DNA of 47,340 nt from Opitutales bacterium. GTDB taxonomy: Bacteria > Verrucomicrobiota > Verrucomicrobiia > Opitutales > Oceanipulchritudinaceae. The position numbers and the translations under genes were made by a program. The notes under the pieces were generated by a model that was not told the DNA's origin, made no database searches, and was given only the letters and a program-made list of their open reading frames with translations. Below are positions 36,961-47,340 of this stretch, in pieces (position 1 is the stretch's first letter; every line of letters starts with the position of its first letter). Location: positions 1-47,340 of the forward strand of contig JAFIGG010000023.1 of the NCBI GenBank assembly GCA_020831485.1. Reading direction: 5' to 3'.

Positions 36961-37689
36961 TCATTGATATTGGATCTTTGCAAGCACCCTAAGGCGTTCA
37001 CGCTTAGAGCTTAGCTTAATTGCTTCAACACGCCTTACAGGTCCATCACTCAGGTTCTTCTCGACCACCGCTTGAAAATAATCGTTCTGACGCCAAATCG
37101 AAACATGCTGAAAATGAGTCACTTCTCCCCCGATATCATCGCCTAGACGTATCAGGTCAGCCAGTGTTACATCTTCATCAACCGGTTGTAGCCCGCCAGG
37201 GTTGTTATTTCTTAAATGCTGCTGATATCTGGGCGTAGGACAACTTAACACTAGAATAGCAGAATCACCTAGAGATTCGGACAAGGCACGGTGAAAAGAA
37301 GGACGATCACCAATTGGGATGTGTTCGTATACATCTAACATGATGCAACCGTCAAACAGTCCGCGAAAACCCTTTTGCCATGATGGTGTGGTGACATCAT
37401 CAGCCGAAAACTCTATTCGTGAATTGTCACCAAACAGTCTCTGAGCAGTCTCAATCAGGATTGGGCTCAGATCAACTCCATATACCTTCGAAGCCGTTAA
37501 ATGTCTGGCAACCTCGAAACTGCTCCAACCTATACCGCATCCGACATCAAGTATCCTGCAACAACTCCGCCTCATCAAATGAAATGAGGCGAAGTGAATC
37601 GCAGCCTCCGCCCTAGGGTTACCTTTAGCGAAGTCAACTAACAAACGCTGAACAAAGCGATCGTAAAATTCTTTTGGACTATTTTCCAT
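36961..37689 (-). CDS. Class I SAM-dependent methyltransferase
   Basis: A 242-residue Rossmann methyltransferase. Motif I is RILDVGCGIGWSSFE (Asp 48, Gly 50-54), the ribose-binding acid is Asp 73 in VYGVDLSP, and the motif II-III region reads FDGCIMLDVYEHIP, where DVYEH is typical of UbiE/Methyltransf_11 enzymes. The substrate is not evident; since it follows a glycosyltransferase gene by 20 nt in a flagellar locus, a sugar O-methyl group is a fair guess. The C-terminal part (SIWRQNDYFQAVVEKNL) is unassigned. Base composition is more AT-rich than the housekeeping genes. Confidence 0.8.
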   Translation of the reverse strand: MENSPKEFYDRFVQRLLVDFAKGNPRAEAAIHFASFHLMRRSCCRILDVGCGIGWSSFEVARHLTASKVYGVDLSPILIETAQRLFGDNSRIEFSADDVTTPSWQKGFRGLFDGCIMLDVYEHIPIGDRPSFHRALSESLGDSAILVLSCPTPRYQQHLRNNNPGGLQPVDEDVTLADLIRLGDDIGGEVTHFQHVSIWRQNDYFQAVVEKNLSDGPVRRVEAIKLSSKRERLRVLAKIQYQ

Positions 37690-37709: not shown

Positions 37710-40310
37710 TTAGTCAAGGCGAACAAAGACACCCTCGGGTGATTTTTCACCACTATATCCCATCCTAGCAAAGAGATCAGCAAATTGCTTCTTGAACGAT
37801 GCATCCGGTATGCTGTCCATATCCGTTAACAGTATTATTTTCGGCTGAATTTGCAGCAAACAATCAATACCCCCATTAGTCTGAAGATCGCGAACTCCAA
37901 TCCCTACACAAACGCGCTCACCACTTGGCATCAAAAAAGACTTTTCACTCTGAGGACTAGCATGTGAATCAGAAATTGATACCCACCTTGTCAATTCATC
38001 ACGCCGATAAAGTTTAAGGCGAGGTAAGTCGCTCAAGGATGCGGCCAAATCAACACGAACGTTCTCAAACAAAAGCATCGCAAATGAATCCCCTAGTCGA
38101 TGCGCTTCCTGAAACCATTCGTAGATGCAGATATCAGAGAACAAGCTATCCGTTGACATCGGTCCGGATTGAACGCGAAAATCCAAATCCGCACAATATT
38201 CTGGTCGGATCTCACCCGTTTCGACCAAAGTCAGCAGTTCTTTCATTTTATGTGCGGAAGTATGTTCGCGACGAAATCGACGATACCCCGCGGCCGCAAT
38301 AGCCATCGCGGTTTCCTTCTCCGATAGATACTTTTGAATTTTCTCAACAAGTTCCTCTTCCGATTCAAAGTCGTCGAACTCCTTACCGCGTTCAAACAAC
38401 AAATCAATTCCGCTAAATTCAGGTAGACGATCCATCAGCAGGAATCCGCCTGCCTCCAGGATCTCAAATGTGCGAAGATTAAGGTCTCCATTCAGACTTA
38501 GGTTCAATGAGACTGCAGAAGTCTGATAAAATTGAGACGCTTCCCGCTGAGGCAATTGCGCAATCATCAACTGGGAAAAGTACTCTTCCAAACGCCTCAA
38601 TACGCGTCGCCGCCAAGGATGGAGATCCCCATTCTGCCCAATAAAAACAAGATCCTTATCTCTATTCCGCAAAAACCTCGTGCGCCAGTCATTCACAGCA
38701 AACCCCGGCAACCAAAAAAGGTTTCGAATACCAGCTTTGGCAAACCAGTGTAAATGATGTCGCTTATGGTCACTCAAATAGATGTCGTACGGTTCAGATC
38801 CAACGTACCCGATCATAGTCTGCAACGGTTGCACACAATGCTGCGTGTCTCCGATAATAAGTACCTTGGGAACCCTTACATTGCCAAGCCCTGAGGGAAA
38901 ATTCAGCCGCGTCGCATCGGCCTTAACGACAACCAGATCGGGCCTTTCCCCAGCTGGAATTCGAGAAATCACATCTCCAATATCGTAACACCCCTTTTCC
39001 GTCTGAAGTGACGGCATTCCATCCACATCTCCATCCGAACAGAAAGGCCCACACACATACTGCTTTGGAGAAACTCGAAACGGCTTCATATAGTTCGGGT
39101 CCGTATGAAAAGAGACGAGAACACTAGGCTCAACTCCCCGGTCAATATTAAATAATTTAACAGCAGTTTCATCTGCTGCTTCTTCAGTCCTGTAATGCAG
39201 ACCTGTAACTGCCGAACCGAGGATTGCACGAAGGCGACCAAGAGACACCTCCCGGCTGTAGTGCTGAATGATACGTCTATTAAAACTCTGTCCCATAGCC
39301 TTGGCACGAGATGTGTTCAAAGACAGCTTCAGAAGATTTTTTGTAGCTCCTTCGAGATCATACTCATTGACAAGATAGCCATCAACATTTTCGCGCACTG
39401 CATCCGGAATGCCAGCATGCCTTGTTGATAAGACTGGAAGTCCATGCGCTCCAGCCTCCAGGATCGCCAAAGGCAATCCTTCAGAATCGCCCGCCTTTGC
39501 GGTGACCGAGTGTTGAAAAAAACAATTGCTATCTGACATTCTGCGGGAAACTTCAGCCCGGTCACAGACGCCGCAAAATTCGATATAGTCGCTGACCCCA
39601 AGTCGCTCAGCCAGACTCTTGCACGCCTGGTGTAACGGGCCATCTCCTATCATCGATAAACGCAGTTCCGGATTATGAGGGAACGCGCTCGCAAAAGCTT
39701 GAATGGCGATCTGAGGTGCCTTCTTTTCCACGAACCTGCCAACGGTAAGAATCCGAAAAGGTCTTCTTTCCGGACTGGCAAGCTTCTTATGGTTTACATC
39801 CACGCCATAGGGTGCTAATATCAACCTCTCTGGATCGGCACCCAAAGACAGCACCTGACGTTGCATAGCTTTTGAAACGACAATAACAGAATGCGCCGAC
39901 GCGAACAGCTTGGGAAATTCACTTTTCGCACTTGTCAACCACGCCTTATCATAAGCATCATTCCCATGAAAATGCACGACAAGCGGAATCCCCGCTCTTT
40001 CGCAGGCCCTAAAGACACGCATAGCCGCCCAAGAAAACTCAGCAAGGACAACCCTAATCCCCTTTTCCTTAAGATAGTTTGCAAAGTCCGATGTGTATGC
40101 ATCGAACACCTTTGAAAGGGTTTTCGTCGTCTGATAAACCCTAAGCGTCCGTTTAGAAAGGATCGGACGGTCATCCATAGACATAAAGGGAAGCGGTGTT
40201 CCAAAAACCACTTCTACACTACTCGACAGTCCCGCTATGTGGTCCTCAATGAAAGTTTCTGAATACTGAAACTTATGAGGACGCACAATGCAGATGGGAT
40301 AATTTAACAT
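37710..40310 (-). CDS. Two-domain glycosyltransferase (GT4-like plus CgeB-like)
   Basis: An 866-residue protein that looks like a fusion. Residues 1-375 are a GT-B fold of the GT4 type: HFHGNDAYD (114-121), VVSKAMQRQV, TVGRFVEKKAPQIAI, and the EX7E motif Glu 277 to Glu 285 (EGLPLAILEAG). Residues about 395-720 resemble the CgeB-like glycosyltransferase group (VLIIGDTQHC, LFWLPGFAV, DLVFIGQNGDLHPWRRRVL, SLNGDLNLRTFEILEAGGFLL). The last 145 residues are unassigned. It probably adds two sugars in sequence, most plausibly in a flagellin or surface glycan pathway given its neighbours. Retaining donors of the nucleotide-sugar type are expected for the N-terminal half. Confidence 0.78.
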   Translation of the reverse strand: MLNYPICIVRPHKFQYSETFIEDHIAGLSSSVEVVFGTPLPFMSMDDRPILSKRTLRVYQTTKTLSKVFDAYTSDFANYLKEKGIRVVLAEFSWAAMRVFRACERAGIPLVVHFHGNDAYDKAWLTSAKSEFPKLFASAHSVIVVSKAMQRQVLSLGADPERLILAPYGVDVNHKKLASPERRPFRILTVGRFVEKKAPQIAIQAFASAFPHNPELRLSMIGDGPLHQACKSLAERLGVSDYIEFCGVCDRAEVSRRMSDSNCFFQHSVTAKAGDSEGLPLAILEAGAHGLPVLSTRHAGIPDAVRENVDGYLVNEYDLEGATKNLLKLSLNTSRAKAMGQSFNRRIIQHYSREVSLGRLRAILGSAVTGLHYRTEEAADETAVKLFNIDRGVEPSVLVSFHTDPNYMKPFRVSPKQYVCGPFCSDGDVDGMPSLQTEKGCYDIGDVISRIPAGERPDLVVVKADATRLNFPSGLGNVRVPKVLIIGDTQHCVQPLQTMIGYVGSEPYDIYLSDHKRHHLHWFAKAGIRNLFWLPGFAVNDWRTRFLRNRDKDLVFIGQNGDLHPWRRRVLRRLEEYFSQLMIAQLPQREASQFYQTSAVSLNLSLNGDLNLRTFEILEAGGFLLMDRLPEFSGIDLLFERGKEFDDFESEEELVEKIQKYLSEKETAMAIAAAGYRRFRREHTSAHKMKELLTLVETGEIRPEYCADLDFRVQSGPMSTDSLFSDICIYEWFQEAHRLGDSFAMLLFENVRVDLAASLSDLPRLKLYRRDELTRWVSISDSHASPQSEKSFLMPSGERVCVGIGVRDLQTNGGIDCLLQIQPKIILLTDMDSIPDASFKKQFADLFARMGYSGEKSPEGVFVRLD

Positions 40311-40437: not shown

Positions 40438-41157
40438 CTAAACCATTTCCTTCGCACGCTCATGACCATTCTTTGCAGCCTTTTCGAACAACTCCCTGGC
40501 AATCGCCTCATTCTCTTCAAGTCCTCCCAATCCTGATTGAGTATATACCGCCAGATTATACAACGCACTCGGATGATCTTGATCGGCGGCTTTCTGATAC
40601 CAGCCAACAGCTTGTTCGTCGTCGAGATCGACGCCTTCACCGTTACTGTAGCAGAGGCCAAGGGCGTATTGGGCTTCGGCGACTCCGGCTTCGGCTGCCT
40701 GGAGGAAGTATTTAGTGGCTTCTTCGAAGTTGGGTTTACCCTGCAGGACGCCATTGTAATGAATGATGCCGAGATTGTAAGCTGCTTCGGATATGCCGGC
40801 CTCAGCGGCTTTTTGATAGTATTCGGCTGAGCGGTGAATATTCTCGTCGACACCAATGCCGGCGGCATAAAAGCGGCCGAGATTACAGCAGGCTTGGCCG
40901 TGGCCCTGGTTGGCAGCCAGCTCAAAGAGCTTGAAGGCCATGTCCACGTCCTGATCCATGCCTTCGCCGGTGGCGAAATAGAATCCCAGATTACATTGGG
41001 CATCGGCATGACCGTTGTTGGCAGCAAGGGAGAACCAGTGCTGGGCGGCTTTGACATTGCGGGGTATGCCCTTGCCGAGTGCATGTAAAAGTCCGATTTG
41101 ATACTGAGCGTTGGCGTCGCCGCCTTGAGCGGCTTCGATGAGTTCCTTGGTGGTCAT
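40438..41157 (-). CDS. Sel1-repeat protein
   Basis: A 239-residue soluble protein built of six Sel1-like repeats of about 36 residues (QYQIGLLHALGKGIPRNVKA, CNLGFYFATGEGMDQDVDMA, CNLGRFYAAGIGVDENIHRS, and so on). Sel1 repeats are alpha-alpha solenoids that mediate protein contacts. It lies 31 nt after the OGT-type gene and is likely in the same transcript as flagellin B, so it may help the glycosyltransferase or act as an adaptor; this is context only. There is no signal peptide. Confidence 0.85.
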   Translation of the reverse strand: MTTKELIEAAQGGDANAQYQIGLLHALGKGIPRNVKAAQHWFSLAANNGHADAQCNLGFYFATGEGMDQDVDMAFKLFELAANQGHGQACCNLGRFYAAGIGVDENIHRSAEYYQKAAEAGISEAAYNLGIIHYNGVLQGKPNFEEATKYFLQAAEAGVAEAQYALGLCYSNGEGVDLDDEQAVGWYQKAADQDHPSALYNLAVYTQSGLGGLEENEAIARELFEKAAKNGHERAKEMV

Positions 41158-41188
41158 GGTGTGTTCTCCTGTGTTTGATTAAGAAATT

Positions 41189-43495
41189 CTAAACTTCATC
41201 CCGTGCAGTGGGGACCACTGCACCTACGTCGAGGTTGCGCTGTTTGGCGTCTTGCCAGATAGAGTGAAAGGCTTCGGCAAGGACTTTGGCAAAAACCTCA
41301 GGATCGCCTAATGGAGACTCGATAAAGCGCTGCCGCAGATTCTGTCGAAGCGCTGCCAATGCCTGAAGATCGGATGCTTTTTCAACGCCAATGCGGATAT
41401 AATCCTCGACCGTCGCTGCAACCCAATCCTCCAAACCGAGTCGACGCATAAATGAAGCTGTGACACGGCTGGCATGGCGATCCCCCTCCAGCCCAATAAC
41501 CGGAACCCCCATATAGAGGGCATCACAATTGGTAGTGGTGCCGTTGTAGGGAAATGGATCAAGGGCGATATCTACCCAGCTGTAGGCAGCGACATGTTTC
41601 TGCACGTCGGCCATCCGGCCTTTAAAGTGAATACGACTCAGGTCGACCCCGTTTTCCTGAAATACCTTTGCAACCCAAACCCGGTTCTCCGGTATGGCCA
41701 GGTTTTCATGCTTCAGCAAAAGCCTCGATCCAGGCAAAGCATTTAGTAGACCTGCCCAAACTGCCAGGACATCTTCATTAATTTTATGCAGGTTGTTGTA
41801 ACAACCAAAGGTTACCACCCCTTCCTTCAGGGCTGGCAAAGGCGTGACATCCGGATACTCGAAGGGAGGCCGAAACGCATGAAAGCCTCTCGGCATACGC
41901 CATATAATCTCGCTGGAAAGTTCGTCCGCGGATCCGGGAGGTTCGACATCTGCGTCTGAAATCCTATAATCCATACGTTTAAGGCCAGTCGACGAAGGGT
42001 AACCCAGCCAGGACACCTGAACTGGCGCAGGCTTGCAGGCAAACACGGTCAGGCGGTTTCCCGTCGTGTGTCCCGCAAGGTCCACCAGTATGTCAATCTT
42101 GTCCTCACGAATCCGGTTCGCAACGTCCACGTCCGGCATTCCCTTGATGTTTCTCCAGCCGCTGCGGCTGCTAAACCGCTTTGCCAGCAGATCCCCGGCG
42201 TCGTAATTGTCATAAAAAAACGATTCAATACTTCCATCTGGAAAATGCCCGACGACGGCATCCAGAAAATAGCCAACCGGATGCGTGCGCAGATCCGGAG
42301 AAACCCAACCGACCCTCAGCGGACGTCCGTTCAGGTCACTCACAGGGAGGACCGGACCCGTCTCAACTTGGGCTTCCATTGCCGCACCCGCTGCTCTGTT
42401 ACGAGCGAACAGCTCTTCAGGGCTTAAGTCCTGATCGTAAAGAGAATAGAACAGGTAGCCTCCCTGGCGTCTCCAGGCCTCCTGGTCTTTGCTGTGGCCT
42501 GCTTCCATCGCCTTAAGGCCTTCCTGAATACGGTTGTAAAAGAACAATACATTGGCCAGGGCATAATGGACTTCCGGGTTGCTCGACTCATCCAGTGGCA
42601 GGTTTGACGCCAATCGCTGTGCCTGAGCCATCTTTTCCGGCCTCTGCCCCTTGTTGAATAATTTGCTGCAGGCATAAATCCAGTCCGGCAAAACCCTGTC
42701 AGGTGCCTCACCTCGTTCCAGTAGAATGGCAAGATAGTGCTCCCAGAGTTCGTCACATTCCAATGTCCTGCACAACGAAGCCGCTTGCCTCGAAAATTCC
42801 TTTGTTTTCCCGCATTGGGAGTCCCCTTTTTCCAATACAGTCCGAAAAGCTTCAGGGCCCTGATTCGGAAACACCAATTTTGCATAATCCATCCAAAAGC
42901 CCGAACAACTGGAGTTGGCGGCGGCACCTCTGGCAAACCATTCCAGCGCCTCGCATTCATTCGAAAGGGCCAGATGAGCCTTACCCATTCTCCAGTAATA
43001 CTCAAAGCACTCAACAACCTCCTGAGGACACGACTCAAACAATTGCAGAGCCTTTTGGGCATTTCCTGTCAGAAGCGTAGTCTCTGCGAAATAAAAGGAA
43101 CCTGGTTTGTAATCCGGAAACTGCTGATAAATATTCTCAAATCGAACCTTTGTCGCGCTAATCATATTCCGAGCACGCAGGTACAGAGCCAGCTGAAGGG
43201 CAAACAGGACCTCCTCGCTTTGCCTGGCAACGAGCCGGGTAACCAATGTGACTGCCTGGGACCGTTTCCCCGTCAGCCAAAAGTGAATGGATTTCTGAAA
43301 ATCCCCTTCAGGATCCAGCGCTGTAAGTGCGGAGTCCTTCCCAAGCCGAAAACACAGTGACCAGTACAAATTTGAACGGTCATTATTTTCTTCCAGAATC
43401 TTCAAGGCCTCCACGCAATGACCGGAGGCATCCAATTCAGTCGCACTCGGGTTCAGTCCCTCTTTCACAATACTGGATTTCGGTTCAGGCATCAC
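41189..43495 (-). CDS. OGT-type (GT41) O-linked N-acetylglucosaminyltransferase-like protein
   Basis: A 768-residue protein with a helical TPR-like N-terminal half (about 1-340) and a GT41 catalytic half. The catalytic region starts LRVGWVSPDLRTHPVGYF, where His 405 matches the OGT catalytic-loop His. It continues with DILVDLAGHTTGNRL, PVQVSWLGYPSSTG, VTFGCYNNLHKI, LLLKHENL and DIALDPFPYNGTTTNCDALYMGVPVI, all diagnostic of the OGT C-terminal domain. It should transfer a sugar from a UDP-sugar to Ser/Thr of a protein. Its ATG overlaps the stop of flagellin B (ATGA), implying coupled translation and making flagellin the obvious acceptor. The last codons lie in a REP-like palindrome. Confidence 0.88.
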   Translation of the reverse strand: MMPEPKSSIVKEGLNPSATELDASGHCVEALKILEENNDRSNLYWSLCFRLGKDSALTALDPEGDFQKSIHFWLTGKRSQAVTLVTRLVARQSEEVLFALQLALYLRARNMISATKVRFENIYQQFPDYKPGSFYFAETTLLTGNAQKALQLFESCPQEVVECFEYYWRMGKAHLALSNECEALEWFARGAAANSSCSGFWMDYAKLVFPNQGPEAFRTVLEKGDSQCGKTKEFSRQAASLCRTLECDELWEHYLAILLERGEAPDRVLPDWIYACSKLFNKGQRPEKMAQAQRLASNLPLDESSNPEVHYALANVLFFYNRIQEGLKAMEAGHSKDQEAWRRQGGYLFYSLYDQDLSPEELFARNRAAGAAMEAQVETGPVLPVSDLNGRPLRVGWVSPDLRTHPVGYFLDAVVGHFPDGSIESFFYDNYDAGDLLAKRFSSRSGWRNIKGMPDVDVANRIREDKIDILVDLAGHTTGNRLTVFACKPAPVQVSWLGYPSSTGLKRMDYRISDADVEPPGSADELSSEIIWRMPRGFHAFRPPFEYPDVTPLPALKEGVVTFGCYNNLHKINEDVLAVWAGLLNALPGSRLLLKHENLAIPENRVWVAKVFQENGVDLSRIHFKGRMADVQKHVAAYSWVDIALDPFPYNGTTTNCDALYMGVPVIGLEGDRHASRVTASFMRRLGLEDWVAATVEDYIRIGVEKASDLQALAALRQNLRQRFIESPLGDPEVFAKVLAEAFHSIWQDAKQRNLDVGAVVPTARDEV
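41203..41223. repeat. Perfect palindrome / REP-like hairpin within the 3' end of the OGT gene
   Basis: The arms gtgcagtgg and ccactgcac (9 bp, perfect) enclose the loop gga. It falls inside the last codons of the OGT-type gene and encodes part of its tail VGAVVPTARDEV. It has the same form as the palindromes at 5282 and 33016 and suggests insertion of a dispersed element at a gene end. Confidence 0.6.
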
Positions 43496-44556
43496 CCCAG
43501 AAGCTGTAGGATCGATTGAGATTGTTGATTTGCCAGGGAAAGGGACTGCGTCCCCAACTGGTTGGCCGTTTGCAAAGCAAGTAGATTCGCAGCCTCCTCG
43601 TTCAAATCTGCCAGGACCAAGCGGTCACCACCGGTCTCCAGCACGTTGACCAGGTCCGCTGTGAAATTCTCCCGATTGGTAATCACCGCCAGACTATTGG
43701 CCATCGCGCTGGCCTGAGCTTTCAGAACATCATCAAATTTCTCGAGATCTGCAACCAGACTGCGCAAGTGTACCTGAAAGTCATCGGCAGCCCAGTCAAT
43801 GTTGTGTCCACCAATGGATTCGCCCTGAGCACCATAGGCCGTAGCAGGTCCACCGGGATCGACCGCACCAAAAGAACGGATCCCCGCAGCCGCACTCTGA
43901 ATTCCCGAATACGGTGAAGAAATATAGATTGCATAATTAGTCCCATCCGCGAGGTCATACACATCAAAATTGCCGTCCGAACTCACGGCTCCTTCCGAAG
44001 GACTGGCCGCTTTAAGAAAACCGTTCGAATCCAAACGAAATTCCCGCGCCGGTGCCGATCCGTTGCGCTGAATATTGAAGCCCAGCACATCGAGGCTGGA
44101 ATCGTCAAAGCTCTCGCTGAACTGCACACTGTCGCGCTCATTGCCCGAGACCAGATTCACTCCAGCATAGCCGGAATCCTTGACCAGTTCCGACATCTGC
44201 ACAATGAGCGAATTGAACTGCTTGCCCAGAGAGGCACGCAGGTCCGGATTGGTCTGTCCCAAGGCATCGTTGACCACGCCCTTCATTTGAGTAATGACCG
44301 TGCGCACCCGGCTGATACCCGTATCCGCCGCCTGAATCCTTTGAATCGACTGCCCCATTGAATCCAGACGTGCCCGAAGACCCATTGCCCGGTCCTTCAG
44401 GTTCACATCCGCAAAGTAACTGGTCGGGTTGTCGACTGGGGAATTGACCTTCTTCCCTGAAGCCAGGCGCTCGTTAACCCGGTCGAAGAGCTTGGAGTTC
44501 TTCTGCAGGGCCAACAGATTGCTGCGAATACCGGAACTGAGGGAAAAATCGGACAT
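43492..44556 (-). CDS. Flagellin B
   Basis: A 354-residue flagellin. The conserved N-terminal D0/D1 helices (SSGIRSNLLALQKNSKLFDR, VNERLASGKKVNSPVDNP, DRAMGLRARLDSMGQSIQRI) and C-terminal helix (ANLLALQTANQLGTQSLSLA) frame a variable centre (about 150-250) rich in Gly, Ser and Ala, a normal site for surface exposure and O-glycans. It is a clear paralogue of flagellin A (44794-45819), nearly identical at both ends and divergent in the centre. A sigma-54-like promoter lies 31-48 nt upstream, and the OGT-type gene overlaps its stop. It is exported by the flagellar type III system. Confidence 0.93.
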   Translation of the reverse strand: MSDFSLSSGIRSNLLALQKNSKLFDRVNERLASGKKVNSPVDNPTSYFADVNLKDRAMGLRARLDSMGQSIQRIQAADTGISRVRTVITQMKGVVNDALGQTNPDLRASLGKQFNSLIVQMSELVKDSGYAGVNLVSGNERDSVQFSESFDDSSLDVLGFNIQRNGSAPAREFRLDSNGFLKAASPSEGAVSSDGNFDVYDLADGTNYAIYISSPYSGIQSAAAGIRSFGAVDPGGPATAYGAQGESIGGHNIDWAADDFQVHLRSLVADLEKFDDVLKAQASAMANSLAVITNRENFTADLVNVLETGGDRLVLADLNEEAANLLALQTANQLGTQSLSLANQQSQSILQLLG

Positions 44557-44586: not shown

Positions 44587-44604
44587 AAAGCAACATCAAT
44601 GCCA
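44587..44604 (-). promoter_or_regulatory. Candidate sigma-54 promoter of flagellin B
   Basis: On the minus strand TGGCATTGATGTTGCTTT matches TGGCAC-N5-TTGC with GG and GC exactly 10 nt apart. The -12 GC lies 33 nt before the ATG, so a leader of about 20 nt follows. Many bacteria use RpoN for flagellin or class III genes. Confidence 0.6.
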
Positions 44605-44729: not shown

Positions 44730-44758
44730 AAAAAAAGGACGCCCCTCGCGGGACGCCC
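44730..44758 (-). terminator. Rho-independent terminator of flagellin A
   Basis: The minus-strand stem GGGCGTCCC pairs with GGGGCGTCC (9 bp, two G-U pairs) around GCGA and is followed by seven T. It lies 35 nt beyond the flagellin A stop and separates the two flagellin genes. Confidence 0.85.
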
Positions 44759-44793
44759 TTGCTCCAAGTGAAAACCTGGTTGAAGCAGTTGAA

Positions 44794-45819
44794 TTATCCG
44801 AGCAGCTGCAGCACCGACTGGCTCTGCTGATTCGCCAGCGACAGGGCCTGGGTGCCCAACTGGTTGGCGGTCTGCAGGGCGAGCAGGTTGGCAGCCTCTT
44901 CATTGAGGTCGGCCAGAACCAGCTTGTCACCACCTTCTTCGAGGGTGTTGACCATGTCGTTGGTGAACTCTTCACGATTGGTGATGATCGCGAGGTTATT
45001 GGCGAGTGCACCGGCTTCGGCCTTGAGGACATTGTCGAAGTCTTCGATGTCCTTGATCAGGTTGGCAAGGTCATCTTTGTAAGTCGAGCCTGTCCAGTCG
45101 ATTTCGTGTGCACCAGCACCGTCACCGGCAGATCTAATGCCCGCAATATCGCCAGCACCAGCGCCCGTACCTGTGTACTGGGTGGTGATGAAGATAGCGA
45201 ACCCGCTGCCAGCGGCAAGATCGGTAACACTGCCGTTACCATCCAGGACAGCACCTTCAGTACTTGCAGCGGTCAAGTTACCGTCTGCATCCATACGGAA
45301 AGCCGAAGCATCCCCGTCGGCACCAGCCCGCTGGATGTTGAAACCAAGCACGTCGAGTTTCGAATCGTCGAAGGATTCGCTGAACTGAACGCTGTCAGTC
45401 TCCAGTCCACTCAGCAGGTTGGAACCTGCGTAGCTGGAGTCCTTGACGAGTTCACCCATCTGTACGATAAGGGAGTTGAACTGACGTCCGAGAGCTTCGC
45501 GCTGGTCAGCGTCGGTTTGACCGATAGCGTCGTTAACAACACCCTTCATCTGGGAGATGACGGAGCGAACACGGGTGATACCGGCGTCGGCAGCCTGAAT
45601 ACGCTGAATGGATTGACCCATGGCATCCAAACGGTCGCGCAGCCCGGACGCACGGTCCTTCAGATTGACGTCCGCGAAGTAGTTGGTTGGATTGTCTACA
45701 GCGGAGTTGACGCTGCGTCCAGTGGACAGACGTGAGTTGACCGTATTGAACGCGTTCGTGTTCTGCTGCAAAGTGAGCAAGTTACTACGGATTCCTGCAC
45801 CAAGTGATATATTAGACAT
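44794..45819 (-). CDS. Flagellin A
   Basis: A 341-residue flagellin with standard D0/D1 ends (LGAGIRSNLLTLQQNTNAFN; ANLLALQTANQLGTQALSLA) and a variable Gly/Ala/Asp-rich centre (about 150-230). Ribosome site AAGG lies 9 nt before the ATG. A sigma-28-like promoter is upstream and a strong terminator downstream, so it is probably the main independently regulated filament gene. Its paralogue (43492-44556) is under a different sigma-factor signature. It lies directly downstream of the FliS-like chaperone gene. Confidence 0.94.
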   Translation of the reverse strand: MSNISLGAGIRSNLLTLQQNTNAFNTVNSRLSTGRSVNSAVDNPTNYFADVNLKDRASGLRDRLDAMGQSIQRIQAADAGITRVRSVISQMKGVVNDAIGQTDADQREALGRQFNSLIVQMGELVKDSSYAGSNLLSGLETDSVQFSESFDDSKLDVLGFNIQRAGADGDASAFRMDADGNLTAASTEGAVLDGNGSVTDLAAGSGFAIFITTQYTGTGAGAGDIAGIRSAGDGAGAHEIDWTGSTYKDDLANLIKDIEDFDNVLKAEAGALANNLAIITNREEFTNDMVNTLEEGGDKLVLADLNEEAANLLALQTANQLGTQALSLANQQSQSVLQLLG

Positions 45820-45888: not shown

Positions 45889-45915
45889 CTTACGGAATCC
45901 CTGAGACCAACTTTA
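45889..45915 (-). promoter_or_regulatory. Candidate sigma-28 (FliA) promoter of flagellin A
   Basis: On the minus strand TAAAGTTG (45908-45915), 11 nt, then TCCGTAAG (45889-45896) matches the FliA consensus TAAAGTTT-N11-GCCGATAA in seven of eight and four of eight positions with exact spacing. The -10 lies 70 nt before the ATG. Confidence 0.5.
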
Positions 45916-45932: not shown

Positions 45933-46244
45933 CTACTTATTCTTCGACAGGGCCAATTCCCAAACGGACTTCAGATGCTCCAGAACACGAACAACTTCCG
46001 ACTTGTAATTGCCTTCCTGAATCAAAACAATGCAATGGCGGTAAATACGCTCCATACCTAAAACAAAGGCTGGATTCTTCGACATATCCATCGAGCACCT
46101 CATACCATTAATAATTTCAACAGCTTCAGTTCTTTGCTCATCTTTTACAGCCTCAACAAGACGCTCGTATGTAGCTAAAATTGCAGTACGTGCAGCAATT
46201 TCCGAATAACCACTGGAGCGGCGTTGATAAACATTCGAAATCAT
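45933..46244 (-). CDS. fliS: FliS-like flagellar export chaperone
   Basis: A 103-residue all-helical protein beginning MISNVYQRRSSGYSEIAART. FliS proteins are about this size, start with a Y-Q motif, and form a helical bundle (here LATYERLVEAVKDEQRTEAV and ILMERIYRHC-like helices) that holds flagellin subunits before export. It lacks the exact LVLMLYDG signature, so the call relies partly on position between a flagellin gene and a flagellar repeat protein. Its ATG overlaps the upstream stop by 4 nt, so the two are translationally coupled. Confidence 0.6.
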   Translation of the reverse strand: MISNVYQRRSSGYSEIAARTAILATYERLVEAVKDEQRTEAVEIINGMRCSMDMSKNPAFVLGMERIYRHCIVLIQEGNYKSEVVRVLEHLKSVWELALSKNK

Positions 46245-47340
46245 CCGAACAAACCTCCACCGCCCTGCTGTGCGGTACCCAGCATTTCAAACATGGAAAC
46301 CGGCCCCTGATTGCCGCCCGTCTGAGCCGACAGCGCACCGGAAGTGTGGTTAAAAATTTGACTGCTCACCGCGCCCAGTTGGGCATCCATGCCGCCGCCA
46401 AGACCACCAAAGAGATTGAATTGGCCGGTAACGCTCGACGCCAACATCCCGGTAGCTCCCCCAGCCATCAATGCAGCGGACGGCATTGTCAGACCCGAGG
46501 CCATTGCATTCTTCAATGTGTTCTGGTCTTCGATGGCAAAGGCTGCTTCTTCGAGAAGTTCCATTTGCGCATCAATCAATTTCAAGGCCTCTTCGACCGA
46601 CTCCGAATAGGCGCGGAAATTAAAATCATCGGTCGCGCTTTGCGCACGTTCGACCTCGACAATTGCGCTGGCCCGGCCACTGACGCCGTCGGCGAGACCG
46701 GTATTGCGCAGATCCACACGCAATCCGTTTTCAAAGGTGACCGAGCGACTCTGGGACAGGTCAACGCCGCGAACCTCTCCGCGAACCCGACCCGAAAGGT
46801 CAGTCAATTGAACTCTGGAGTCAGCCCCATTGTAACGCACCTCTAGCAGGTAATTTCCGGAATCCAAGCCCTCCATCCCGTCGGCAGCGCCGGTCATCCG
46901 CACTCCGTTGATCTGGAGGGAAGCACCGTCCCGGTTCAGGCTCAAGTTGCTCATCAGGTCAACCTTGTCGTGCAGTGTGCGACCCGTATCGCCGGCGAAC
47001 AGCTCCTGCCCGTTGAGCCGCTCATAGCCAAAGGAGAAATGGTGAATTCCCGGACCGAAATTTTCGTAATCATACTTATCGATAGCCCCGAAGAAACTTT
47101 CCTTATCAACATGCAGCTGAAGACCATTGTCAAAAGTGACCCACTCCCGGCCGCTGCCGCTGAGGTCGACGCCGTTCTGACGGATCATCTCCAGTCCACT
47201 CTGGTCCCGGATAATGACGGTCGAGTTGGCACCCTCATAGCGAATCTCTCCACTGTAAATACCATCAGCCAGTTCTGGATAGCCTTCCTTCGGCGGCACC
47301 AGCTCCCCGCCACTGACTTCAAGACCAAACAGCCCACTGG
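46241..47340 (-). CDS. Flagellar-locus repeat protein, 5' end outside window
   Basis: The frame is open to the window edge (reading SGLFGLEVSGGELVPPKEG at the edge), so only the C-terminal part, about 366 residues, is seen. It contains two diverged copies of a beta-rich repeat of about 58 residues. Counted from the GTG at 47299, these lie at about 11-67 (SGEIRYEGANSTVIIRDQSG, VTFDNGLQLHVD) and 143-200 (YLLEVRYNGADSRVQLTDLS, VTFENGLRVDLR). After them comes a helical stretch (SESVEEALKLIDAQMELLEE) and a Gly/Ala/Met-rich tail. FliD often sits beside fliS, but this sequence does not match FliD; it might be a hook-IN-type or cap-associated protein. It is coupled to the FliS-like gene by ATGA. Confidence 0.6.
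   Translation of the reverse strand, partial: SGLFGLEVSGGELVPPKEGYPELADGIYSGEIRYEGANSTVIIRDQSGLEMIRQNGVDLSGSGREWVTFDNGLQLHVDKESFFGAIDKYDYENFGPGIHHFSFGYERLNGQELFAGDTGRTLHDKVDLMSNLSLNRDGASLQINGVRMTGAADGMEGLDSGNYLLEVRYNGADSRVQLTDLSGRVRGEVRGVDLSQSRSVTFENGLRVDLRNTGLADGVSGRASAIVEVERAQSATDDFNFRAYSESVEEALKLIDAQMELLEEAAFAIEDQNTLKNAMASGLTMPSAALMAGGATGMLASSVTGQFNLFGGLGGGMDAQLGAVSSQIFNHTSGALSAQTGGNQGPVSMFEMLGTAQQGGGGLFG

Follow-up and report, generated by a model that had tools for sequence, protein, structure and literature searches.

In Caulobacter crescentus, all six flagellins are modified in the cytoplasm by FlmG, which is described as a protein of 596 residues that carries N-terminal tetratricopeptide repeats (TPR) and a C-terminal GT-B glycosyltransferase domain and that requires pseudaminic acid (PMC7591256). 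Enterobacterial flagellin glycosylation islands are described as holding genes for GT41 glycosyltransferases with a SPINDLY domain (COG3914; PMC4875605). Here we report a locus of an Opitutales bacterium (Verrucomicrobiota, Oceanipulchritudinaceae; assembly GCA_020831485.1) in which a flagellin gene, flaB, directly overlaps the gene for a SPINDLY-like GT41 protein glycosyltransferase. The window analysed is the whole contig JAFIGG010000023.1 (C78 in our numbering) with its 47,340 bases, part of a 3.86-Mb draft genome that is 96.82% complete. We consider it reasonably likely that the locus is a cytoplasmic flagellin glycosylation operon, working like Caulobacter FlmG and the enterobacterial GT41 islands and probably acting on both flagellins encoded here. 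Behind this assignment stand the observed gene order, the gene overlap, a terminator-like hairpin, the active site residues, the predicted fold of the enzyme and the linkage across genomes. Cytoplasmic TPR-GT41 enzymes that glycosylate flagellin make up a known kind of system, to which this locus adds an unusually direct gene junction.

The window GT41 resembles FlmG, as described in PMC7591256, in its layout of TPR and a GT-B domain, a comparison made with the published description and not with the FlmG sequence; the genome contains flbT, flaF and neuB as well. It differs from the described FlmG in its length of 768 residues, the overlap with a flagellin gene and the neighbouring gene for a Sel1-repeat protein. 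With the enterobacterial islands the locus shares a SPINDLY-type GT41 accompanied by a methyltransferase and other sugar genes at the flagellin genes. However, those islands are portrayed as recently acquired, with a low G+C content, whereas here the link recurs across the Opitutales GT41 set, and most of the island GT41 proteins bear methyltransferase domains, whereas here the methyltransferase is a separate protein (PMC4875605). The combination of glycosyltransferase and sugar modification genes that makes a flagellin glycosylation island is present between 36961 and 43495, with the GT41, a GT4 + Glyco_trans_1_2 protein and a methyltransferase, all of which would act on flagellin.

To our knowledge, SPINDLY-like enzymes have so far been associated with the O-fucosylation of regulatory proteins in plants and protists, and for most of the bacterial SPINDLY (SPY)-like genes we know of neither the acceptor nor the sugar. 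Very few SPY-like genes are characterized according to PMC10027727. A GT41 gene overlapping the gene of its likely acceptor provides two partners that can readily be tested together, and the prediction that follows from a SPINDLY-type active site is clear, namely a modification other than O-linked N-acetylglucosamine (O-GlcNAc). If our reading is true, flagellin glycosylation of the FlmG/GT41 kind extends to the Verrucomicrobiota; a literature search of titles and abstract openings, with subscription journals mostly outside it, revealed no report of this, nor of a flagellin-GT41 overlap or a Sel1 partner of a flagellin glycosyltransferase.

Open reading frames (ORFs) and Pfam matches on the minus strand give the order FliD-like protein, FliS-like protein, flagellin A, flagellin B, GT41, Sel1-repeat protein, two-domain glycosyltransferase and methyltransferase. 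Flagellin B (43492..44556, 354 amino acids) matches PF00669 with 52.7 bits and PF00700 with 25 bits, both above cut-off, and is followed by the GT41 gene (41189..43495). At the junction the minus strand reads CTT CTG GGG TGA TG, with the flaB stop TGA at 43494-43492. The GT41 frame contains an ATG at 43492-43490, which has one base in common with the flaB stop, and one codon ahead of it a GTG at 43495-43493, which has four bases (GTGA) in common. The first-pass annotation had the flaB stop and the GT41 ATG share ATGA; overlap and tandem order hold, but the bases read GTGATG (43490..43495). Since the two genes overlap, leaving no room for a terminator, they should belong to one transcription unit. 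Overlaps of four nucleotides were found in six of the 27 same-strand neighbour pairs of a gene list picked by hand from the window ORFs, fliD-fliS included, and on this base rate we rejected the overlap as a special feature. The overlap alone indicates an operon and not a special pair. A stop-start overlap of a kind this common in the window also sets no one-to-one ratio, which removes the ground for the fixed stoichiometry proposed in that annotation. A hairpin at the junction was likewise rejected, as no special fold was detected there (z 1.12). In related loci the GT41 gene overlaps other upstream genes, namely a methyltransferase gene by 7 nt (L066) and TPR genes by 4 nt (L067) and 1 nt (L069); here and below, L-numbers denote loci fetched, G-numbers genomes compared and C-numbers contigs.

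The GT41 protein matches PF13844 with 164.5 bits, far above the curated cut-off of 25, and its AlphaFold model, built from 41 sequences, aligns with GT41 structures of the GT-B fold. PF13844 also matches a protein, unnamed in our control, of Caulobacter vibrioides. The mean pLDDT of the model is 84.5; averaged over ten residues, it is 80-98 in the GT-B half and 65-93 across residues 61-390, compared to 29-63 in residues 1-60. The earlier description as a TPR-plus-GT41 protein stands for the GT41 part; TPR reach the Pfam threshold only (PF14559, 24.9 bits, cut-off 25), but the N-terminal half is predicted to form helical repeats that align with the SPINDLY repeats too. An N-terminal TPR region together with a GT-B domain, as in the FlmG class, is thus present with this proviso for the TPR. 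The best sequence match in the PDB is plant SPINDLY, a protein O-fucosyltransferase (7y4i, E 4.5e-82), followed by the O-GlcNAc transferase (OGT) of Thermobaculum terrenum (TtOGT) and XcOGT. SPINDLY is also the best structure by fold: the model aligns with 7y4i_B over 663 residues (Z 50.0, rmsd 23.8, model residues 52-754) and with 8dti over 579 (Z 46.2, rmsd 4.8, residues 128-752). The alignment with the bacterial GT41 TtOGT (5djs) covers 516 residues (Z 45.3, rmsd 2.6, 31% identity), and this enzyme is reported to lack O-GlcNAc activity in vitro (PMC9715652).

The residues by which GT41 enzymes choose between GDP-fucose and UDP-GlcNAc are given as SPY K689, A731 and Y744 (PMC10027727). Their equivalents in the window protein are K595, A637 and Y650, and K571 corresponds to SPY K665; equivalents of K665, K689, H728, A731 and Y744 are all kept (SPINDLY residues as described in PMC9715652 and PMC10027727). 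The protein therefore carries the signature of the SPINDLY-like clan (Lys at 595, no Arg at 637, Tyr at 650) in place of the L866, R904 and C917 of human OGT that mark the OGT/SEC clan, and the assignment as an OGT-type enzyme transferring O-HexNAc, made in the first-pass annotation, does not fit these three residues. The signature is widespread: K595 is found in 33/35 Opitutales and 145/154 other GT41 domains, Y650 in 27/35 and 150/154, and an Arg at 637 in 1/35 and 18/154. Judging from these domains, the SPY-type residues mark a broad bacterial family rather than this locus.

The link between GT41 and flagellin was followed in 133 genomes including that of the window, with thresholds of E 1e-10 for GT41 and E 1e-5 for relatives of flagellin B; genomes below the latter are referred to as lacking flagellin. 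GT41 was detected in 21 of the 133 genomes and a flagellin B-like protein in 15, with 12 having both. Thus, GT41 is present in 12 of 15 flagellin-positive genomes (the exceptions are G060, G088 and G117) compared to 9 of 118 others (Fisher p 2.8e-9), and restricting the comparison to high-quality genomes gives 11/11 versus 7/93. In all 12 genomes with both, GT41 and flagellin are located on one contig within 20 kb. The distance is a few kb in G000, G007, G008, G012, G015, G068 and G084 and about 14 kb in G003 and G010, while in G019, G045 and G075 a GT41 lies directly upstream of flagellin on the same strand; in these three the GT41 closest to that of the window is a different gene away from flagellin (L080, L079 and L081, respectively). 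G008 and G012 belong to the same family as the window host, G084 and G045 to the same order. Binding and modification of flagellin by the window GT41 are predicted from this linkage.

A contig search of named genomes with the GT41 protein as single query found no relative, and a search with a GT41 alignment returned at least 563, of which the best-scoring 77 loci were kept. Among these 77, a flagellin was detected with a home-made profile in flanks of up to 9 kb in 12: four from Opitutales, three of which are the contigs of G008, G012 and G084 again, and eight from other groups (Geobacteraceae 5, Desulfobacteraceae 1, Nitrospirae 1, unplaced Proteobacteria 1). A quick tree was built from 71 GT41 domains, with named rows from 20 chosen loci of the 77 and the half domains of L011 and L012 left out, and the window GT41 falls into a set of nine Opitutales rows (SH-aLRT 94). 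Eight of the nine are linked to flagellin, and the ninth is the locus of G120, in which GT41 is cut by the contig end and no flagellin B-like match was found in a genome 75% complete. The flagellin link changes nine times on this tree compared to a mean of 19.6 after shuffling, and none of 500 shuffles was as low. The Sel1 gene (40438..41157, minus strand, PF08238 189.3 bits) follows GT41 in all eight loci fetched from relatives that are of the same type as the window (L066-L072, L075), and it does not follow GT41 in the f4 type (L076-L078). It is a steadier partner of GT41 than the direct flagellin overlap. In G003 and G010 two GT41 domains are united in single chains of 1332 (L072:4010-8008) and 1338 amino acids (L075:2562-6578), each with a Sel1 gene after it.

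Several observations weigh against our interpretation. A direct overlap of flagellin and GT41 genes is absent from all 18 related loci fetched, which have different genes at that place or flagellins on the opposite strand (L066). The ribosome binding site of the GT41 gene is GGGG only and very near the start, with no good site at normal spacing, and either GTG or ATG might be the start codon. The Sel1 gene has the site AGGAG at 41166-41170 with a spacing of 8 nt; a weak site for GT41 and a good one for Sel1 would suit, without proving, a dependence of GT41 on ribosomes arriving from flaB. GT41 also occurs in the nine genomes without flagellin, so that the family has other roles or the flagellins there are too distant for detection, and no starred set of the GT41 tree includes the window. 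Finally, the pocket differs from that of SPINDLY, since P406 and D658 stand for S496 and E752; of the corresponding SPY variants, S496A is reported to retain 30% activity and E752A none (PMC10027727). With these GDP-fucose contacts replaced, we do not class the window enzyme, from its residues, as an O-fucosyltransferase. At position 406 (about 42278-42280) a Pro is found in all eight rows present of the nine-row Opitutales set, which is mostly flagellin-linked, whereas the remaining 27 Opitutales rows have Pro in 4 cases and Ser in 20; Pro or Ser at this residue is a possible marker of sugar choice.

The first-pass annotation regarded GT41 and flagellin B as a dedicated enzyme-substrate pair. 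In its strict form, with a true O-GlcNAc transferase acting on flagellin B only, stoichiometry fixed by the overlap and flagellin A unmodified, we give this explanation very little credence. The direct overlap and the terminator 3' of flaA would agree with it, as would the composition of residues 141-270, with 18 Ser and 2 Thr in flagellin B and 10 of each in flagellin A. However, the total of Ser and Thr is 20 in both, overlaps are common, the donor residues are of the SPINDLY type and FlmG is described as modifying all six flagellins (PMC7591256). Flagellins A (44794..45819, minus strand, 341 amino acids; PF00669 57.5 bits, PF00700 30.5 bits) and B are 68% identical and sisters in the flagellin tree (100/100), owing to recent duplication or gene conversion. 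Because they are sisters and the genome has a single GT41, an enzyme for flagellin B only is unlikely, and the absence of a partner next to flagellin A does not imply that it escapes the enzyme. The GT41-flagellin link in related genomes looks older than the split of A and B, provided that gene conversion does not mask an earlier one. The flagellin tree gave no support to flagellin B being a dedicated substrate of long standing, with the exception of G007, G008, G012 and G015, where the flagellin beside GT41 branches apart from the bulk flagellins and would be a special flagellin in some relatives. GT41 could also be placed beside flagellin through operon packing only and have a different target, either the Sel1 protein or some other protein, which we judge quite improbable. 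The nine genomes with GT41 and without a similar flagellin, and the Sel1 gene being the closer conserved neighbour, would fit such a target, but the strong co-occurrence with flagellin and the recurrence of the linkage in other phyla (the eight loci outside Opitutales among the best-scoring 77) argue for flagellin.

The flagellin-modifying operon might instead use a CMP-nonulosonic acid, as FlmG does, and not a GDP-sugar. This is a doubtful but conceivable alternative. NeuB is encoded on contig C1 with 229.7 bits, above cut-off, right after an ORF in which we recognized a CMP-sugar synthetase motif by eye, and FlmG is described as using pseudaminic acid (PMC7591256). A GDP-fucose supply was sought in the same 96.8% complete genome: gmd stayed at 47.9 bits (cut-off 415) and the fucose pyrophosphorylase family of the salvage route, PF07959, had no match, leaving O-fucosylation with GDP-fucose from either the de novo or the salvage route unsupported and, together with P406, D658 and the flagellar setting, separating the locus from plant SPINDLY as described. 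What speaks for a GDP-sugar is K595, equivalent to the lysine with which SPINDLY is described to read guanine (PMC10027727); moreover, neuB does not lie on the contig of the window. A GDP-mannose pyrophosphorylase-like protein reaches 313.1 bits, below the model cut-off of 372.95. Judging from these sequences, UDP-GlcNAc is probably not the donor and O-GlcNAc would not be the first expectation; more likely donors are a GDP-sugar, GDP-fucose made de novo excepted, or a CMP-nonulosonate such as FlmG uses. Between GT41-Sel1 and two flagellins of the related locus L067 (9676-13790), Pfam identifies a DegT aminotransferase, a hexapeptide acyltransferase, a Gfo/Idh oxidoreductase and a Glyco_trans_1_2 protein, an arrangement suggestive of a diacetamido-sugar pathway within the cluster.

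In the cytoplasmic glycosylation operon that we favour, flaB, GT41 and Sel1 would be co-transcribed from a promoter in the gap between flaA and flaB, which is perhaps sigma-54 dependent. Ribosomes finishing flaB would restart on the GT41 frame, so that the enzyme would be made alongside flagellin but in smaller amount. By analogy with FlmG and SPINDLY, the helical-repeat arm would hold flagellin in the cytoplasm and the GT-B domain would move the sugar onto Ser or Thr before export. Flagellin A, being very similar to B, would probably be modified too, the Sel1 protein might be a conserved helper, and elongation or capping of the glycan may be the task of the two enzymes encoded downstream, the glycosyltransferase and the methyltransferase. 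A more elaborate version, which we regard as unlikely as a whole, is that a SPINDLY-like enzyme with a fixed Sel1 partner puts a GDP-sugar other than fucose on flagellins and is turned on a tier ahead, under sigma-54, by being translationally coupled to an early flagellin; the enzyme would then be ready when the bulk sigma-28 flagellin is made.

That flaA is separated from flaB by a terminator, as had been proposed, is borne out by a terminator-like hairpin at 44735..44760 on the minus strand (11 pairs, a loop of 4, a run of seven T; -20.1 kcal/mol, z -3.18). It is listed first in the terminator scan, which finds 12 sites in total, the same as the mean of 12.0 after shuffling. A sigma-54-like -24/-12 site, TGGCATTGATGTTGCT (44589..44604, minus strand), starts 48 nt before the flaB ATG and agrees with the fuller consensus at 10 of 12 positions. 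It is the sole exact match in the window to our sigma-54 pattern TGGCANNNNNNTTGCW, in a scan that is overall unenriched (10 sites with at most one mismatch, 8.27 expected). No sigma-54-like site was found upstream of flaA, where a weak sigma-28-like site, TAAAGTTG-N11-TCCGTAAG, is located 96 nt upstream (45889..45915, minus strand, 11/16); since 226 of 2000 random 260-nt stretches of the window score 11 or more, we regard it as no more than suggestive. The genome carries both RpoN (rpoN) and FliA.

Sigma-54 scores (out of 12) were determined for 28 flagellin or flagellin-like starts. Six of the seven flagellins beside a GT41 of the window's type reach at least 9 (window flagellin B 10, L067 9, L068 10, L069 9, L070 11, L071 12, L108 7), compared to two of 15 other typical flagellins (L082, L083); p is 0.0023, and 0.014 and 0.023 after collapsing rows of the same genus, with cut-off and groups picked after the scores were known. 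Such scores are reached by 122 of 2000 random window stretches. The comparison excludes three flagellins directly downstream of a family f4 GT41 (8, 11 and 6, the site scoring 11 falling inside the GT41 frame) and three divergent flagellin-like genes by flbT-flaF (9, 10 and 11). The sigma-54 part of our interpretation is countered by a sigma-28-like match of 12/16 located 92 nt upstream of flaB, and by family f4, in which the pattern is reversed and the sigma-54 site is found on the distal flagellins L082 and L083 instead. On these sequences we take a sigma-54 rule for the flagellin beside GT41 as a lead only. G120 encodes, about 6 kb from its GT41, a response regulator that contains a sigma-54 activator domain (L174:432-1946).

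All remaining genes of the cluster are also on the minus strand. Upstream of flaA, the FliS-like flagellin chaperone (45933..46244) has a PF02561 match of 23.3 bits (E 8.3e-5) that does not reach the cut-off of 26.7. It overlaps by 4 nt with an ORF at 46241..47338 that runs off the window end and to which the name FliD is given from its position ahead of fliS. Pfam and NCBIfam searches gave no match for this protein; its relatives adjoin flagellins in L066, L071/L123, L073, L074 and L108. An NCBIfam search with 10 proteins listed no match at cut-off, two proteins being without any match. Downstream of Sel1, the two-domain glycosyltransferase (GT4 + Glyco_trans_1_2; 37710..40310; PF13524, PF00534) has relatives in eight of the 96 loci compared (L067, L076, L077, L078, L118, L142, L146, L174) and is perhaps the second enzyme of the cluster. 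The S-adenosylmethionine (SAM) methyltransferase (36961..37689; PF13649, 47.4 bits) has no relative among these 96 loci and is possibly part of the same cluster. Methyltransferase genes are located directly upstream of GT41 in L066 (7427-9061) and L174 (6676-8259) and between two flagellins in L071 (5892-7511); those of L066 and L071 have weak TPR matches below cut-off.

Distant flagellin-like genes were observed elsewhere. In G117, a genome of the order in which no GT41 match was found, four such matches follow each other on contig C15 (2414-7060) with about 28-33% identity. Pfam shows flbT and/or flaF by GT41 in some related loci (L067, L068, L069, L072). On contig C75 of G000 (L163:6567-8211), a divergent flagellin-like gene of 278 amino acids (PF00669 20.0 bits, below the cut-off of 26.6), with a sigma-54-like site of 9/12 located 27 nt upstream, is followed by flbT and flaF. 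Similar trios are present in L108 and L123, and the trio of L163 is reminiscent of the regulatory flagellin FljJ and FlbT as described for Caulobacter.

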